From assembly GCF_004364935.1 (NCBI RefSeq), contig NZ_SOBT01000008.1:2297534-2361533 (forward strand): a DNA stretch of 64,000 bases, in the 5' to 3' direction. Position 1 is the first letter of the stretch; every line of letters starts with the position of its first letter. Under the pieces are notes generated by a model. The model saw only the letters and a program-made list of their open reading frames with translations. It was not told the DNA's origin and did not search any database. Positions 1,930 through 9,060 of this stretch are shown piece by piece. Origin of the DNA: Panacagrimonas perspica. GTDB taxonomy: Bacteria > Pseudomonadota > Gammaproteobacteria > Nevskiales > Nevskiaceae. Position numbers and translations under genes: made by a program.

Positions 1930-2937
1930 GTGGCCGGTTTTCTGATTCGAAGTGCCATCCTCGAAGGGGCAGCCGATCTGATCCGGGCGCACGGGGCGCG
2001 GCCCGCTGTCCTTGCACGCCGGGTCGATCTCCCCGCGCGGGCGCTGACGGATCCCGATCTGATGGTGCGCGCCACCTCCGTCCTGGAGTTCTTCGAGCTG
2101 GCGGCGGAAGCATGCAGCCTTCGAACCTGGGGCCTGACGCTGGCTCGCGACGCGCGTCTGGCCGCCATCCTCGGGCCACTGTGGATCCTGCTCAGAAACT
2201 CGCGGACCGTGGATCAGATGTGCAAGGAGCTGGCCGACAACTTCGACCTGTACAGCGACTCTGCGCTGGTGACCCTCGAGCGGACCGAGGGGGGCCTCTA
2301 CCTCAACTGGTCGGTAACGACCGCTCAGGCTCAGAGCGAAGTGCAGATGTCGGAGTACGCAATGTCGCTCTTCGCAAGCGAGATCCGCAGCCACCTGACG
2401 CGTGACTGGATGCCACGCGCCGTGCTGTTCCGGCACGCCGCTCCAGGCGGTAGCCTGCGTCTCTACAGGACCGCCTTCGGCGCGGACGTGCGCTTCAACC
2501 AGGGCAGGAACGCCTTGCTGCTGGATACCAGGACGCTCGAAGCGCCGCTGAGAGGCCGTGGTGCATCGGGTCGCGCCCTGGCGGACCGGCTCGTGCATCT
2601 GGAGGAGCATCCTGCAGAGCAATCGATTGCCCGAAGAGTCGAGGCCATCATTCGCGCGCTGATGCCGTATGCACCCTGCGGCGTGAAGGATGTCGGTCAT
2701 GCCCTGCAGATGGCGCCTCGCACCTTGCAGCTGCGCCTGAAGAAAGCCGACGCGCCCTCGTTCGTCGAGATACGCGACGCCGTACGTTCGGACCTGGCGT
2801 CGAAGTATCTGCGGCACTCCAAGCTGAGCGTCGTCCAGATCGCCGAGATCCTCGGTTACGCCGACTCGACGTCGCTCAGTCGGTCGTTTCGAAAGTGGCA
2901 CGGCCGATCGCTACGCGAGGTTCGTCGCCAGCGATAA
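1930..2937 (+). CDS. AraC-family transcriptional regulator
   Basis: DNA-binding regulator of 335 residues. The N-terminal two thirds look like the arabinose-binding-like effector domain of the OruR/AraC group (FLIRSAILEGAADL onward); the C-terminal ~95 residues carry two helix-turn-helices, the second with the family pattern VVQIAEILGYADSTSLSR followed by FRKWHG. I place the start at GTG 1930 because GGAG at 1920-1923 lies six bases upstream; an ATG at 1882 would add 16 residues without a comparable ribosome site. It is divergent from the Baeyer-Villiger-type monooxygenase, with about 315 bp between start codons, so it probably activates that gene in response to the substrate. The effector cannot be told from the sequence. 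Confidence 0.9.
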   Translation: MAGFLIRSAILEGAADLIRAHGARPAVLARRVDLPARALTDPDLMVRATSVLEFFELAAEACSLRTWGLTLARDARLAAILGPLWILLRNSRTVDQMCKELADNFDLYSDSALVTLERTEGGLYLNWSVTTAQAQSEVQMSEYAMSLFASEIRSHLTRDWMPRAVLFRHAAPGGSLRLYRTAFGADVRFNQGRNALLLDTRTLEAPLRGRGASGRALADRLVHLEEHPAEQSIARRVEAIIRALMPYAPCGVKDVGHALQMAPRTLQLRLKKADAPSFVEIRDAVRSDLASKYLRHSKLSVVQIAEILGYADSTSLSRSFRKWHGRSLREVRRQR

Positions 2938-3282
2938 TCGAAATCCCGGCCCAGCCATTGCCCGCCCCGGACCGTCGGCGGGCGCCATCTCATGCGTCGA
3001 CCGTGAGGTCACATGCAAATTGCCGCGCAGCCGCGAGCTTCGTGCAAAACGCATTTCAACCCACGCTTCGCGGCAGCAGCATCAAACGTGATTTCAACGA
3101 CATAACGACTTTCCCGGCTGGCACGACTTTTCAATATGAAAGGTCGAAGGCGCGCTTCCTGCACGACCCGGTGGCGGCAAGCCGCTCGCCTCCTAATCCA
3201 AATGAAGGGTGAAGGTCATTCGACGAGGCGCTCCGTTCGCAGAGCCGAGTCGAGCAGGCCCAGCACAGGGAGAGTCAGACAG
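2938..3282. other. Intergenic stretch before kaiC
   Basis: 345 bp without a recognisable gene. It holds three short direct repeats, ATTTCAAC at 3053-3060 and 3091-3098 and TTTTCAAT at 3128-3135, spaced 37-38 bp apart, and is locally less GC-rich than its surroundings around 3045-3140. This is the likely promoter region of the Kai operon, but I could not assign a clear -35/-10 pair or a sigma-54 site. Confidence 0.5.
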
Positions 3283-5031
3283 ATGGCGGTGAAGAAACGA
3301 TTGGCCCCGCGCGTGGCACCCACGACGCACGACCTCAAGAAGGCGCGCACCGGCATCCATGGTCTGGATGAAATTACCGGTGGCGGCCTGCCCCGCGGCC
3401 GACCGACCTTGGTCTGCGGACCCGCGGGTTGCGGGAAGACGATGTTCGCGACCGAGTTCGTCGTCCGAGGTGCACTCGAACAAGGCGAGCCTGGCGTCTT
3501 CATGATGTTCGAGGAGACCGCCCAGGAGCTTGCCGAGAACGTCCGGTCGCTGGGTTTCGACCTCGAGGACCTCCAACGTCGGAAGAAGCTGGCGCTCGAT
3601 TTCGTTCACATCGAACGCACCGAGATCGAAGAGACCGGCGAGTACGATCTCGAAGGCCTGTTCATTCGTCTCGGTCATGCGATCGACAAGGTCGGCGCCA
3701 AGCGGGTGGTCCTGGACACCATCGAAGCCCTGTTCAGCGGACTGCCCAATCACGCGGTCCTTCGCGCCGAACTCCGCCGCCTCTTCCGCTGGCTCAAGGA
3801 CCGCGGAGTGACCGCCGTCATCACCGGCGAGCGTGGTGAGCACTCGATGACGCGGTACGGACTCGAGGAGTACGTCGCCGACTGCGTGATCGTCCTGGAT
3901 CACCGGATCGTGGACCAGATCTCCACCCGCCGACTACGCGTGGTGAAGTATCGCGGTACCTCGCACGGCACCAACGAATATCCGTTCCTGATCGGCGCGC
4001 ACGGACTGGTGGTCCTGCCCATTACGTCGATGCGTCTGGATCACGCGGCATCTCATGAACGGGTCCCGAGCGGAATCCGCGGTCTGGACGAGATGCTCGG
4101 CGGCAAGGGCTTCTACAAGGGCAGCAGCGTGCTGGTGTCCGGTGCTCCGGGGACCGGCAAGAGCACCGTCGCCGCCACATTCGCCGACGCCGCCTGCAAG
4201 CGCGGCGAGCGCACGCTTCTGTTCACCTACGAGGAATCCCAGAGCCAGCTTCTGCGCAACATGCGCTCCATCGGCCTGGACTTGGATCAGTGGGTACGCC
4301 AAGGCCTGCTGGAGATTCATGCGTCCCGGCCGACTCTTCTGGGACTCGAGCAGCATCTGGTCGCGATGCACGAAATCGTCACGCGGTTCCGTCCCGCCGT
4401 TGTCGCGGTGGATCCGATCAGCAACCTGACGATGGAACAGGGCGATGTCGCTCTCAAATCGACGCTGATGCGCCTGATCGATTTTCTGAAGGAGAAAGGC
4501 GCGACGGCGCTTTTCACCAGCCTGACGGCCGACTCCACCGTCCCACTGGCCGAGTCCCAGGTCGGCGTGTCGTCGTTGATGGACAGCTGGATCCTGCTGA
4601 CCAACATCTCGGGGAACGGTGAACGTACGCGTGCGGTGCAGGTGCTCAAGTCGCGCGGGATGCCCCATTCCAACCGTGTCCGCGAATTCATATTCGGTGA
4701 CCGAGGCGTAGACCTTATCGACGTCTATTTCGCGGGCGGCGAAGTTTTGACCGGCACGGCACGCGTGAAGCGCGAGGCACAGGAAACAGCATCCTCCGAG
4801 TTGCGGGACGAAGACCACTCCCGTCGGCTCAGCGCGCTCGCCAATCGGCGCAAGGCCATCGACGCGCAGATCGCGGCGCTCAACGCCGAGGCGGAAGATC
4901 ACGCCCGCGAGGTCGCGGTCAGTCTGGCTCGCGAGCGGCTCGATGCCGGCATCACCCGGAATCGCGCCGCCGTGAACGAGGATCGCGATCCAGGACGGGC
5001 TGCGTCTTCGTCGAGGAAGCGAGCACGATGA
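3283..5031 (+). CDS. kaiC: KaiC-like double RecA-domain ATPase/autokinase (KaiC2 type)
   Basis: Homolog of the cyanobacterial clock ATPase, 582 residues. Two RecA/KaiC domains are visible: CI with Walker A GPAGCGKT (46-53) and the catalytic glutamate pair E77-E78, and CII with Walker A GAPGTGKS (287-294) and E317-E318. The position of the CII phosphorylation sites (Ser-Thr in the cyanobacterial clock KaiC) reads Ser430-Ser431 in VSSLMDSW, the pattern I know from non-clock KaiC2 proteins. The last ~60 residues are charged and probably a coiled coil. The start at ATG 3283 follows GGGAGAG at 3269-3275; an upstream ATG at 3136 in the same frame has no such site. The stop overlaps the next start (ATGA), showing translational coupling to kaiB. 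Likely a hexameric signalling ATPase for stress or metabolic control, not a proven circadian oscillator. Confidence 0.93.
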
Positions 5032-5360
5032 GTCCGGTAAGGAACCCCTACAAGAAGCCGGCGAAAATGGAACCGGAGTGGCAGCTCAAGCTCTACGTTG
5101 CCGGCCATACCGCGAAATCGCTGGCGGCGCTGAAGAATCTCCAGACGGTGTGCGAGACGCACCTGGCCGGTCGGTATCACATCGAAGTGATCGATCTTCT
5201 GGTCAATCCCAGATTGGCGGCGGGCGATCAGATTCTTGCGGTACCCACGCTGGTCCGGAAGGTTCCTCAGCCCATTCGAAAGATCATCGGCGATCTTTCC
5301 AATGAAGAACGGGTGCTGGTCGGCCTGGACGTGGTGCCCATCGGCAAGACCGCGCCGTGA
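5028..5360 (+). CDS. kaiB: KaiB-like protein, first copy
   Basis: Thioredoxin-like KaiB-domain protein, 110 residues. The core runs from [14 protein letters not shown] (about 20-33) to the conserved end [18 protein letters not shown], then RVLVGLDV. In cyanobacteria KaiB switches fold and docks on the KaiC CI ring; here it should bind the KaiC encoded just upstream. It overlaps kaiC by four bases and the second kaiB by four bases (GTGA), so all three are coupled. There is a basic N-terminal tail of about 15 residues before the domain. Confidence 0.93.
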
Positions 5361-5683
5361 ACGTCCGAAGCACGTCGACGCCCGATGCATGGATCGACGG
5401 AGCGCCAGCGACTTACCAGTTCCGTCTCTACATCAGCGGCGCAACACCGGCGTCTGCACGAGCGGTCGTCAATACACGTCGAATTTGCGAGGAGCATTTG
5501 AAGGATCGCTACACGCTCGAGATTCTCAACATCGCCGATCACGTGGAGCGCGCCGCGCGCGACCAGGTGGTGGCCGCGCCCACGCTGATCAAGGGATCAC
5601 CACTTCCACTGCGCCGCTTCATCGGCGACATGTCGAACGTCGACAGGATCCTCGCAGGGCTGAATCTTGCCCCCTCGCCCTGA
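5357..5683 (+). CDS. kaiB: KaiB-like protein, second divergent copy
   Basis: A second KaiB-domain protein of 108 residues, starting at GTG 5357 inside the stop of the first. It keeps the same landmarks ([12 protein letters not shown], then [18 protein letters not shown] and RILAGLNL) but shares only part of its residues with copy one, so this is an old paralog and not a fresh duplication. Its longer acidic/polar N-terminus (about 22 residues) differs from the basic tail of copy one. Two unlike KaiB partners beside one KaiC suggest that the proteins compete for the ring or connect it to different outputs; this is inference. Confidence 0.92.
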
Positions 5684-5708
5684 GCTCGTCGCCACGCTCG
5701 CCCCTCCC

Positions 5709-8150
5709 ATGAACAGCGATGACCAGACCGAAGCGCGATTGCTTCGGGAGAACGCTGACCTCAAGATCAGACTCGAGGAAGCGGAAGACACCCTCGCAGC
5801 GATTCGCCGCGGCGACGTCGACGCACTGATCGTCGGCGACGACATCTACACACTCGACAGCGCCCACACGGCGGCGACGCGACTCAGAAAGGACGTCCTC
5901 GCACAGATGCAGGACGCGGTGATCGCCTTCGATCATCTGGGCCACATCATCTTCATGAACCCGGCAGCCGAGCGGCGATACGGGCAGTCCGCTTCCGAGA
6001 CGCTGGGGCGCACGCGCAATGAACTCTTCGAGGAACAATGGCCGAGCGCGGACGCCGAGCAGGTTTCGCAGGCGGCGCTGCAGCGGGACGGCGTCCATCG
6101 GGCGCAGAGCGTCCACCGCTGCAGGAACGGCGAACGGATCGACGTGGAAACCACCGTCACCCGTCTCGACGTTGCCGAAGGACAGGCCTTCGGCGAGTTG
6201 CTGGTGGTGCGCGACATCAGCGCCCGCATCCGGGCCGAGCGCACGCTCCAGATCGCCGTGAAGGAGTTGGCCCGTCGCGAACGGCAGTTCGCGACCATCG
6301 TCGAGAATTCGCCGGATATCTACTCCCGCGTCGATCCGCAACACCGCCACGTCTATGTGAGCCCCGCCGTCGAGCCTTATGCCGGACGAAGCGTGGAACA
6401 TCTGCTCGGCAAGACGCTCGCCGAATGGGGAGCCGGACCTGCGGTGCATGAACAATGGGAACGTGCCCTTCGGACGGCATTCGATGGTGGCCAGAAATCG
6501 CGCATGCGAACCAGGTTCACCGATGCCCGGGGACTCCGGCATGTGTTCGATGCGCGCCTGATTCCCGAGCTCGCGGAGAACGGTTCGGTCGAGTCCGTGC
6601 TGTCGATCGCCACGGACATCACGGAGCAGGAGATGATCGACACCGCGCTGCGCGACAGTCAGGCGCGCCTTCGATTCGCGCTCGACTTCGCCAGCATCGG
6701 CGAGTGGGATCTGGATCTGACAAACGATGTCGCGGTGCACTCCCTCCGTCACGATCGCTGCTTCGGCTATGCCGAACCGATTGCGAAGTGGAGTTACGAG
6801 CATTTTCTCGCGCATATCCACCCGGATGACAGGGGTCGCGTCGCGCAGAGCTTCGACAGCAGTGTGGCGGCCGGCAGCGAATGGCGAGTCGAGTGTCGCG
6901 TGGTCTGGCCGGACCAGACGCTGCACTGGGTGCAGGCCGGTGGCAGCCTCTACGTCTCGCCCGATGGCACACGTCACATGATGGGCATCATCGCGGACGT
7001 GACCGACCGCAGGGCGGCCGAGGAAGCGTTGCGAGAAGCAGACCGGCGGAAGGACGATTTTCTCGCGACCCTGGCGCATGAACTGCGGAATCCGCTTGCC
7101 CCGATACGTAACGCTCTGCAGATTCTGCGCCTGACGTCGGATCCCGCGAAGCAGCTCAAGTGGCGGGACATCATCGAGCGCCAGTTGCAGCAGATGGTGC
7201 ACCTGGTCGATGACCTCCTGGATGTCAGCCGCATCAGCAAGGGCAAGGTCGAACTGCGCCGCGAGCTGGTCGATATCGCCGACGTGCTGCGGGCTGCCGT
7301 CGAGACGAGCCGGCCGCTGATCGACGAGAACAAGCATCGGCTCGACATGCGGCTGCCCGAGCCCGCGACGATGTTCGTCAACGCCGATTCGACGCGGCTG
7401 TGCCAGATCGTCGCGAATCTTCTCAACAACTCCGCCAAGTACACCCCTGAAGGCGGAAGCATCAGCCTCACCGCGGAGCGCAATGGGAACAACGTGATCA
7501 TTTGCGTCCGCGATTCGGGTGTCGGCATCCGGCAGGATCTCCTGCCCCGCGTGTTCGACATGTTCACGCAAGTGGAGCGCTCGATCGAGCGCGCACAGGG
7601 CGGACTCGGCATCGGTCTTGCGCTGGTCAAGACGCTGGTTCTCATGCACGGCGGATCCGTCTCTGCTCACAGCGACGGGCCTGGCCTGGGCAGCACTTTC
7701 ATCGTCCAGCTGCCGCTGTCCAATATCTCCACGCACATCTCTGCGTCGGAGCACGAGCAGGGACCGGACCGGCGCGCAACCGAGCTCATGGTACTGGTCG
7801 TCGACGACAACATGGACAGCGCCCATACCCTTGCCGAGCTGCTGCAGTTATGGGGCTATCGCACCTGCACCGCCTACGACGGACCCGGAGCCGTGGCCGC
7901 GGCGGACTCGAATCGTCCGGCCGTCGCCGTGCTCGATATCGGCCTTCCGGGCATCAACGGCCTCGATGTTGCCCGCCGTATACGCGAACAACCCTGGGGT
8001 CGCGACATGGTCCTTGTCGCCCTCAGCGGCTGGGGGCAGGGTTCGGATCGGATCAAGACCGCCCAGGCAGGCTTCGATCATCACTTCGTGAAGCCGGTCG
8101 ATATTCGCCGGCTCGCCAAGGTTCTCGAAGAATCGCGATCGGATCCTTGA
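5709..8150 (+). CDS. Hybrid sensor histidine kinase with three PAS domains and a receiver
   Basis: Cytoplasmic hybrid kinase of 813 residues. Order: short coiled coil (about 5-35) ending in the common linker AAIRRGDVDALIVG; PAS domains at roughly 55-170, 185-310 and 315-440; HisKA with the phospho-acceptor His457 in ATLAHELRNPL; HATPase with N box NLLNNSAKY, G1 DSGVGI and G2 GLGIGLALVK; and a C-terminal receiver with acidic VVDDN, phospho-Asp743 in LDIGLPG and KPVD. No transmembrane segment is visible, so it senses an internal signal. The ATG at 5709 was chosen; an in-frame TTG at 5667 would overlap kaiB by 17 bases. It is last in the Kai operon and is the obvious output or input partner. Unlike cyanobacterial SasA it carries no KaiB-like sensor domain. 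Confidence 0.93.
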   Translation: MNSDDQTEARLLRENADLKIRLEEAEDTLAAIRRGDVDALIVGDDIYTLDSAHTAATRLRKDVLAQMQDAVIAFDHLGHIIFMNPAAERRYGQSASETLGRTRNELFEEQWPSADAEQVSQAALQRDGVHRAQSVHRCRNGERIDVETTVTRLDVAEGQAFGELLVVRDISARIRAERTLQIAVKELARRERQFATIVENSPDIYSRVDPQHRHVYVSPAVEPYAGRSVEHLLGKTLAEWGAGPAVHEQWERALRTAFDGGQKSRMRTRFTDARGLRHVFDARLIPELAENGSVESVLSIATDITEQEMIDTALRDSQARLRFALDFASIGEWDLDLTNDVAVHSLRHDRCFGYAEPIAKWSYEHFLAHIHPDDRGRVAQSFDSSVAAGSEWRVECRVVWPDQTLHWVQAGGSLYVSPDGTRHMMGIIADVTDRRAAEEALREADRRKDDFLATLAHELRNPLAPIRNALQILRLTSDPAKQLKWRDIIERQLQQMVHLVDDLLDVSRISKGKVELRRELVDIADVLRAAVETSRPLIDENKHRLDMRLPEPATMFVNADSTRLCQIVANLLNNSAKYTPEGGSISLTAERNGNNVIICVRDSGVGIRQDLLPRVFDMFTQVERSIERAQGGLGIGLALVKTLVLMHGGSVSAHSDGPGLGSTFIVQLPLSNISTHISASEHEQGPDRRATELMVLVVDDNMDSAHTLAELLQLWGYRTCTAYDGPGAVAAADSNRPAVAVLDIGLPGINGLDVARRIREQPWGRDMVLVALSGWGQGSDRIKTAQAGFDHHFVKPVDIRRLAKVLEESRSDP

Positions 8151-8310
8151 TTCGTTTCGGTCGTCTGTCGGCCGAAAGGCATACGGCGGACTTCGAGATC
8201 GGAACGGTCCTGATCGCAAGCAATCTCCCGGATGGGATCAGCGCAGCACGACCGGCCGACCCTCGAATCCGCGCGGGAAGACGAGCGAAGTAGATTTCGG
8301 CGCCGGCACC

Positions 8311-9060
8311 TCAGGCCGGAACCGAACCCGAGGAACGCGCCGACGCACGCGGCTTCTTCTTCTTCGACAAGCGTTCCTCGGCCTGGCGGAACGACTCCAC
8401 CTCGGCCTTCATGCGAAGCAGCGTGAACACGTTGAGCATCAGCTTGCTGGCGACCTCCGCCATCGCCGCCCGCTTCTCGACCGGATGATCCGGGCTCACA
8501 CGCGACACGAAGATGTCGATTTCCGCGGCCGCCAGATCCCGCGCCGCCTTGAGGTACATCGACACGATGTTCGGATCGAACCCCTCTTCCTCGGTGAACC
8601 CGGCAGTGCGCATGTCGCCCCAGACGCCGACGATCTGAGCATCCATGCGGGACACGTACGTTCCGTCCGGCCTGGTGTGAATCTCGATGGCTCCGATTCG
8701 ACGCAGGATCTTGGCGTCGGCCTCGGCTCTGGGGTTTCGACTCTCGATCGACTGCAGCGCGACCAGCTGCGTGTCGACGCCTGCGCGGAGCGCGAACAGG
8801 GCATCCAGATGTGGGAGCACCGCGATCTCGCCGGTGGACGCGGACGGCGCGCCATTCAAGGCCTGCTTGATCTCGTGGATCTTCAGCCGGCCCTCGGTCT
8901 GCAGACGCCGAATCGTCTCGATTGCGCGCACATGCTCTTCGCCGTAATCCGCCACGTTGGGCTTGGGCCGCGCCGGCTCGGGCAGCAGTCCATGTGCGAG
9001 ATAGAACTGGACCATCTGCCTGCTGATGCCCGTCCTGCTCTCCAACTCCCTCATCTTCAT
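8311..9060 (-). CDS. MerR-type transcriptional regulator, long C-terminal domain
   Basis: Regulator of 249 residues. The N-terminal 70 residues form a MerR-like winged helix (MKMRELESRTGISRQMVQFY, then VADYGEEHVRAIETIRRLQ); the remaining ~180 residues are a helical effector or dimer domain with no metal-binding cysteines, ending in a Lys/Arg/Ser-rich tail. It is divergent from the membrane hydroxylase gene, so that is the likely target. A perfect palindrome, seven-base arms GGGCGAT/ATCGCCC, lies at 9079-9093 in its own leader and could be an operator. Confidence 0.85.
   Translation of the reverse strand: MKMRELESRTGISRQMVQFYLAHGLLPEPARPKPNVADYGEEHVRAIETIRRLQTEGRLKIHEIKQALNGAPSASTGEIAVLPHLDALFALRAGVDTQLVALQSIESRNPRAEADAKILRRIGAIEIHTRPDGTYVSRMDAQIVGVWGDMRTAGFTEEEGFDPNIVSMYLKAARDLAAAEIDIFVSRVSPDHPVEKRAAMAEVASKLMLNVFTLLRMKAEVESFRQAEERLSKKKKPRASARSSGSVPA

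Follow-up and report, generated by a model that had tools for sequence, protein, structure and literature searches.

What does a bacterial timer built of KaiB and KaiC drive when it comes without KaiA, and what could a second KaiB add to it? Both questions are raised by a four-gene operon of Panacagrimonas perspica (Gammaproteobacteria), which lies in a stretch of 64,000 nucleotides (contig NZ_SOBT01000008.1, positions 2,297,534 to 2,361,533 of the forward strand; hereafter the window, in which all positions below are counted). The layout, kaiC followed by two kaiB genes and a hybrid kinase gene, has been described before and is found widely; what was not expected is a conserved element at the start of the kinase, and from its sequence context we read it as a putative output coupler for a KaiB1/KaiC hourglass. 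The four genes and the element are as follows.

3283 to 5031, plus strand: kaiC, 582 residues, with two ATPase (KaiC) domains and a long C-terminal tail like that of Rhodobacter sphaeroides.
5028 to 5360, plus strand: kaiB1, 110 residues, of the R. sphaeroides KaiB type.
5357 to 5683, plus strand: kaiB2, 108 residues, with a GTG start, of a second and more variable type.
5709 to 8150, plus strand: a three-PAS hybrid histidine kinase, 813 residues, probably soluble.
5733 to 5870, plus strand: the N-terminal element of this kinase, 46 residues, a proposed output coupler consisting of a coiled-coil-like stretch and the motif AIRxGxVDALxV.

The element, about 46 residues ahead of the first PAS domain, is common to fourth-gene proteins with unlike outputs (L and G numbers are our labels for loci and genomes): HisKA kinases with or without a receiver, HWE kinases (L144, L160, L163 and L192 of R. 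sphaeroides), GGDEF-EAL proteins (L064, L159) and a sigma-54 activator (L186), while PAS is the only Pfam match in the fourth-gene proteins of L133 and L183. A profile of the element matched 3 of 58 genomes of the family, 9 of 369 of the class and 12 of 398 of the phylum, the best 17-19 first-look candidates per genome being scored in the two wider searches. KaiB is found in 3, 33 and 38 of the same genomes at E 0.001 (28 in the class and 37 in the phylum are above the Pfam cut-off), and among the element-bearing genomes 3 of 3 (the same three), 8 of 9 and 10 of 12 are KaiB-positive, which, with genomes taken as independent, corresponds to Fisher p of 3e-5, 1e-8 and 1e-9. We had expected a generic kinase feature, and this was ruled out, as the element is found almost only beside kaiB. 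The same association makes it very improbable that the kinase is a chance neighbour with an input of its own and no Kai link: its PAS domains could well serve as its own sensor, but the element is tied both to KaiB-positive genomes and to the position after kaiB.

Which member of the operon does the element accompany? In a table of the family, class and phylum sample rows with two plasmid records, made without the 80 named loci described below, the element stands downstream of 13 of 13 KaiB1-clade genes (two of these loci were in the element profile) versus none of 24 other kaiB genes. For 8 of the 13, R. sphaeroides among them, it is directly downstream with no adjacent KaiB2, which suggests that the element follows KaiB1 and not KaiB2. 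Nor does it seem to follow the KaiC tail, since four loci (L065, L077, L097, L098) have a long-tailed KaiC and a KaiB of another type and are without the element. Among the named genomes, the profile matched in 79 of 80 loci, at 400 bp or less from KaiB in 78, and a regular expression picked it up in 80 of 85 loci; those that it missed, five in number, show it by eye in the alignment. A genome-wide search of 30 KaiB-positive genomes, which took 30 of the 80 named loci, returned 33 matches, one apiece except for G819 (three) and G832 (two); the extra ones belong to a second kaiC-kaiB-kaiB operon in each of these two genomes (in G832 with its kaiC in pieces) and to one divergent open reading frame (ORF) beside a kai operon.

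Two loci carry unusual arrangements of the same parts. In L232 (5444-6376) an additional kaiB upstream of kaiC and a divergent ORF of 319 residues with the element lie beside a full kaiC-kaiB-kaiB-kinase operon. In L227 (4721-4947) a truncated KaiB remnant just precedes an element-bearing ORF of 1039 residues, where a loss of KaiB with the output retained is possible from the sequence; G518, counted as KaiB-free in the samples, has a truncated KaiB remnant immediately before its element.

None of the Pfam and NCBIfam models comes near its cut-off on the element, and of PDB entries Miranda matches it best (E 0.0037). A literature search, which covered few subscription papers and not the primary Methylorubrum extorquens paper, found neither the element nor a locked partner role of KaiB2 described, and with this limited coverage the silence is weak evidence of absence. 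The "RtaNt" N-terminal domain reported for kaiC-only operons without kaiB is said to be weakly similar to KaiB and SasA (PMC3164672).

How common is the company of two KaiBs? KaiB1 relatives were collected from one genome per species over 84,980 species, and the best 80 of 507 confirmed stretches were taken, so that the counts from these 80 loci are biased to close relatives. Tandem kaiB genes are present in 79 of the 80; kaiC is directly upstream in 77 of the 79, the other two being at a contig start, and in 67 a HisKA-type kinase core lies no more than 2.6 kb further downstream. As to the 12 tandem loci without such a core, the downstream proteins of seven were scanned with Pfam, the remaining five being L148, L153, L161, L180 and L185. 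The 33 tandem loci that entered our tree carry labels of nine phyla, an archaeal bin included, though the phylum assigned to a metagenome bin may be in error. L149 and L158 seem to be a single contig placed in two bins, and L134 is nearly a copy of L135. The operon is thus real, as a recurrence of this order across loci labelled nine phyla is far more than chance would give, and a previous proposal made from the window alone (the earlier note), which took kaiC, two divergent kaiBs and the kinase as one unit and suggested looking for the same order in other genomes, is borne out. Its remark that such modules usually have one KaiB fared in two ways: of 18 sample genomes with the element beside kaiB, 12 have a single copy and 6 a tandem (G000, G054, G076, G552, G554, G678), in agreement with it, whereas the closest loci are nearly all tandem.

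Since a kaiC1-kaiB2-kaiB1-kaiR1 cluster of M. extorquens AM1 is in print (PMC8069551), and given the near-universal tandem among the closest loci, the layout is not new. The AM1 cluster, compared by its published order only, has kaiC, two kaiBs and a regulator gene in the order seen here; its KaiC1 is phosphorylated at a serine pair, and a kaiC1 mutant is more sensitive to ultraviolet light (PMC8069551). Three Methylobacterium loci of other strains (L156, L175, L188) show the kaiC-kaiB-kaiB-kinase core, and a paper of 2011 had pointed out a histidine kinase or GGDEF/EAL gene beside kaiB or kaiC in bacteria other than cyanobacteria (PMC3164672). Within the family KaiB is patchy. Among the eight nearest rows for each protein, 8 for KaiC, 7 for KaiB1 and 4 for KaiB2 are of Burkholderiales, judged by record title; the pattern fits a transfer of the whole unit and does not show it.

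Are the two KaiBs, then, two copies of one thing? Both exceed the Pfam cut-off for PF07689 (87.6 bits for KaiB1 and 72.2 for KaiB2; cut-off 27), and both stay below the NCBIfam KaiB equivalog cut-off of 110 (102.2 and 68.6). They are 40% identical. In a tree of 101 domains over 87 columns, which is few columns for that many rows, with tandem loci thinned at 74% identity to 33, one clade (99/86) holds all 33 first copies, the R. sphaeroides KaiB and the middle KaiB of L176; no first copy falls outside it, and the second copies, other than that middle KaiB, do. Relatives from the phylum sample group in this tree with KaiBs of Beijerinckiaceae and R. sphaeroides. The divergence of the two KaiBs claimed in the earlier note is thus confirmed by trees of both, and a recent local duplication is ruled out, as KaiB2 lies outside the KaiB1 clade. 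A single origin of the second copies is neither shown nor rejected (p-AU, the approximately unbiased test, 0.33). The locus L176 (1003-1968), from a Chloroflexota bin, has three kaiBs in a row after kaiC. The KaiB1 clade takes in the middle KaiB and also the first, which sits on a long branch; the third groups with the second copies.

Column counts were made over 78 loci, with L176 (three KaiBs) and L127 (one) set aside. Mean column entropy is 0.73 bits in the first copies and 1.51 bits in the second, some positions of KaiB2 are nevertheless invariant in 78 of 78 second copies, and both proteins share highly conserved core positions. Pairwise distances correlate over 71 loci for KaiC-KaiB1, KaiC-KaiB2 and KaiB1-KaiB2 (r 0.69, 0.60 and 0.38), and 0 of 2000 permutations gave values as high. 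The N-terminal tails, which the earlier note had stressed, are poorly conserved, and the copies differ more clearly in predicted fold preference and in variability. One could suppose that KaiB2 is a redundant dosage copy in slow decay and that KaiB1 alone matters, for which its looser sequence and the absence of a tandem copy in those 12 of 18 element-bearing sample genomes may speak; but the tandem is kept in nearly all close loci and under nine phylum labels among the 33 on the tree, the invariant positions persist and the frame is open in the window, so that we hold this to be quite unlikely.

Predicted structures point to a difference in kind. AlphaFold2 gave KaiB2 the thioredoxin-like (fold-switched) fold with a predicted local distance difference test score (pLDDT) of 81.6; this model is matched best by Legionella KaiB (4kun) and by KaiBs that are bound to KaiC or stabilised in the switched state. 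Of the 50 matches listed none is a ground-state KaiB, and the N-terminal domain of SasA, complexed with KaiC CI (6x61), appears from rank 12 on. The KaiB1 model (pLDDT 62) has its C-terminal strand as in the ground state, and its 17 best structural matches are free cyanobacterial KaiBs in the ground state, an assignment which we take to hold also for those other than 2qke. That entry is named as a ground-state KaiB (PMC10808063), and the Legionella pneumophila KaiB, 31% identical to the KaiB2 model in the structural alignment, was crystallised in the switched state (PMC10808063). The contrast between the two models is a hint. Changes at three positions of R. sphaeroides KaiB, namely I68, V83 and N84, flip its fold (PMC10808063), and in our alignment the I68 column is aliphatic in 78 of 78 first copies and 49 of 78 second ones, the V83 column in 78 and 31 of 78, and the N84 column is glycine in 78 and 49 of 78.

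These data bear on two further readings. According to the earlier note, both KaiBs would fold-switch alike and compete for CI sites, and the ratio between them would decide the state of a single KaiC ring, which in turn drives the kinase; the Pfam scores, the overlapping genes and the shared conserved core agree with this, but the position of KaiB2 outside the KaiB1 clade, its higher entropy and the differing predicted folds (with the alignment confound discussed below) do not, and we judge equal competition to be unlikely. Alternatively, KaiB2 may be the adaptor of the kinase, as in a SasA split in two, whose KaiB-like domain would be a free protein that hands KaiC to the kinase. The likeness of its model to KaiC-bound KaiB and SasA, as well as the adjacency of kaiB2 to the kinase gene, would suit such a role; the eight KaiB1-clade genes, that of R. 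sphaeroides included, which have the element and no KaiB2 would not, nor does the finding that no ORF in the scanned loci joins a KaiB domain to KaiC, a kinase core, a receiver or the element, and it seems to us improbable.

The KaiC of the operon is a complete two-domain protein: it scores 705.9 bits against NF006799, "circadian clock protein KaiC" (cut-off 408), 353.8 against TIGR02655, under its cut-off of 546.25, and 371.5 against PF06745 in two stretches, which means two fused KaiC domains, with Walker A motifs and a paired phosphosite present. Two of its features, placed by alignment, are needed here.

4570 to 4575, plus strand: Ser430-Ser431, the paired phosphosite position of KaiC.
4705 to 5028, plus strand: the C-terminal tail of KaiC, 108 residues from GVDLID on.

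The phosphosite pair is SS in 79 of 80 aligned KaiC rows and TS in one (79 of 86 loci had a KaiC of sufficient length, and the genome's own paralog was added). Counted from GVDLID, the tail has 109 residues in R. sphaeroides and 30 in the own paralog. The nearest solved chain is the KaiC 8dba (601.7 bits over residues 19-552), named as that of R. sphaeroides (PMC10076222), in which the tail joins two KaiC hexamers and KaiC phosphorylates itself without KaiA (PMC10076222). In KaiC of this type the tail would form a 12-helix coiled coil. By analogy we infer that the present KaiC may behave alike.

With R. sphaeroides (Cereibacter) the operon thus shares a KaiC 48.6% identical and equal in its tail, a KaiB of the KaiB1 clade and, in the plasmid record L192, a downstream kinase headed by the same element; in contrast, that operon has one kaiB, and its kinase is of the HWE type without a receiver match. 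The cyanobacterial KaiABC system with SasA, where the kinase reads KaiC in competition with KaiB (PMC6769508), shares the KaiB and KaiC families and differs in that here Pfam KaiA is unmatched in the genome and the kinase has no KaiB match. A long-tailed SS KaiC, a KaiB1 of the R. sphaeroides type, a variable KaiB2 and a kinase whose element occurs almost only beside KaiB1-clade genes together suggest a KaiA-free KaiBC timer of the R. sphaeroides kind that includes a second KaiB and its own output; we regard it as the best explanation, held with a confidence that stays a little short of even.

In such a timer KaiC would phosphorylate itself without KaiA and report the ATP/ADP state, and KaiB1 would be the partner that switches its fold and is slow to load on the CI ring. 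KaiB2 would mostly keep the thioredoxin-like fold that binds KaiC; as a ligand of that ring, fast or constitutive, it could prime or limit the loading of KaiB1 and so tune it. The kinase would dock on the KaiB1-KaiC assembly by its N-terminal element, and the state of the ring might gate both the autophosphorylation of the kinase and the relay by way of the receiver that it carries. Operons could exchange the output end, but not the coupler. The full proposal, that the KaiB jobs are split between a timer (KaiB1) and a permanent thioredoxin-like binder (KaiB2) and that an undescribed coupler of about 46 residues is fixed in the KaiB1 clade with its outputs (kinase, cyclic di-GMP enzyme, sigma-54 activator) swapped, is less likely than not.

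Several points weigh against the proposed timer and its coupler. Copies of the element in KaiB-free genomes could have been missed, because 17-19 candidates were scored per genome. Three weak matches lie away from Kai genes: G293 (E 4e-4) and G744 (E 3e-4) are KaiB-free, and the 8-9 kb fetched for them contain no Kai gene; in G055 a KaiB is present, on a contig other than that of the match. L127, with a KaiB1-like gene that has no element and ends 464 bp before the contig does, is a likely exception to the pairing. A long KaiC tail is not required, as L112, L113, L115 and L128 keep the element without it. The KaiB1 model is weak, and the alignments given to AlphaFold2 were unequally spread (84-89% identity for KaiB1 versus 60-69% for KaiB2); with T. 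elongatus KaiB, the ground state was predicted from a close alignment and the switched state from a full one (PMC10808063), so that the fold contrast may be in part an artefact, while the counts at the fold-switch positions are independent of this confound. Finally, the KaiB2 of the window is changed mildly, with L, A and G where R. sphaeroides has I68, V83 and N84, and N where T. elongatus has D91.

In the literature consulted, the core of non-cyanobacterial Kai systems has been studied and their outputs are named as candidates only. An element that follows KaiB1 through loci labelled nine phyla and is joined to several signalling outputs is a concrete and testable candidate for what connects the timer with the cell, and may be used as a sequence tag for finding what KaiB1 timers control. 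Operons with two KaiBs provide a natural pair of proteins that could help to tell KaiB fold switching apart from KaiC binding.

Behind the element the kinase has the following parts.

5895 to 6989, plus strand: three PAS regions (best Pfam stretches at residues 63-170, 198-308 and 350-427).
7050 to 7721, plus strand: the HisKA and HATPase_c kinase core (Pfam).
7791 to 8126, plus strand: the receiver domain (Pfam).

Its Pfam matches are PAS, PAS_4, PAS_3, HisKA, HATPase_c and Response_reg, the phosphorelay residues are His457 and Asp743, and the Pfam scan found no KaiB-like N-terminal sensor domain. The Kyte-Doolittle hydropathy of 19-residue stretches never rises above 1.56, hence the kinase is probably soluble, and the description in the earlier note of a soluble three-PAS hybrid phosphorelay protein holds. 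It scores 127.1 bits, under the cut-off of 342, against NF006800, "histidine kinase", which we take to be the SasA model.

As regards the operon, kaiC and kaiB1 overlap by ATGA at 5028-5031 and kaiB1 and kaiB2 by GTGA at 5357-5360, and 25 bp (5684-5708) separate kaiB2 from the kinase gene; the earlier note had this gap right and spoke of three overlaps, of which two were counted. The kinase could start earlier, at an alternative TTG at 5667. A single transcript is inferred from the gene spacing, a scan of 2880-8500 having found no match to a sigma-70-like promoter or a terminator. Upstream, the strand of the operon carries an AraC-type regulator gene; downstream, a MerR-type one lies on the opposite strand. 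The two kaiB genes are the only PF07689 matches in the genome, and the absence of kaiA noted earlier agrees with the lack of any match to KaiA (PF07688) genome-wide, where the control matched Synechococcus elongatus alone and a KaiA3-like protein was not searched for. The guanine-plus-cytosine content (GC) of the four genes is 0.59-0.64 (0.73-0.79 at third codon positions), that of the two neighbour genes 0.65 (0.78 and 0.87) and that of the window 0.66, with no clear sign of foreign origin by this comparison of base composition.

Some further KaiC loci may be mentioned. The genome has a second KaiC (C3:32783-34162; L092 8655-10235) of 526 residues with a short tail and an SS site, 24% identical to the KaiC of the window, which is without KaiB and adjoins a divergent histidine kinase gene, and a weaker KaiC-domain protein of 559 residues at C4:405771-406328. 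The four tail-less loci named above retain KaiB1 and KaiB2 together with the kinase element, and in three of them, the Rhizobacter loci L112, L113 and L115, a receiver gene precedes kaiC. The four long-tailed loci without the element have one KaiB, which groups with two second copies (98/91), and judged by sequence they are possibly a sister system.

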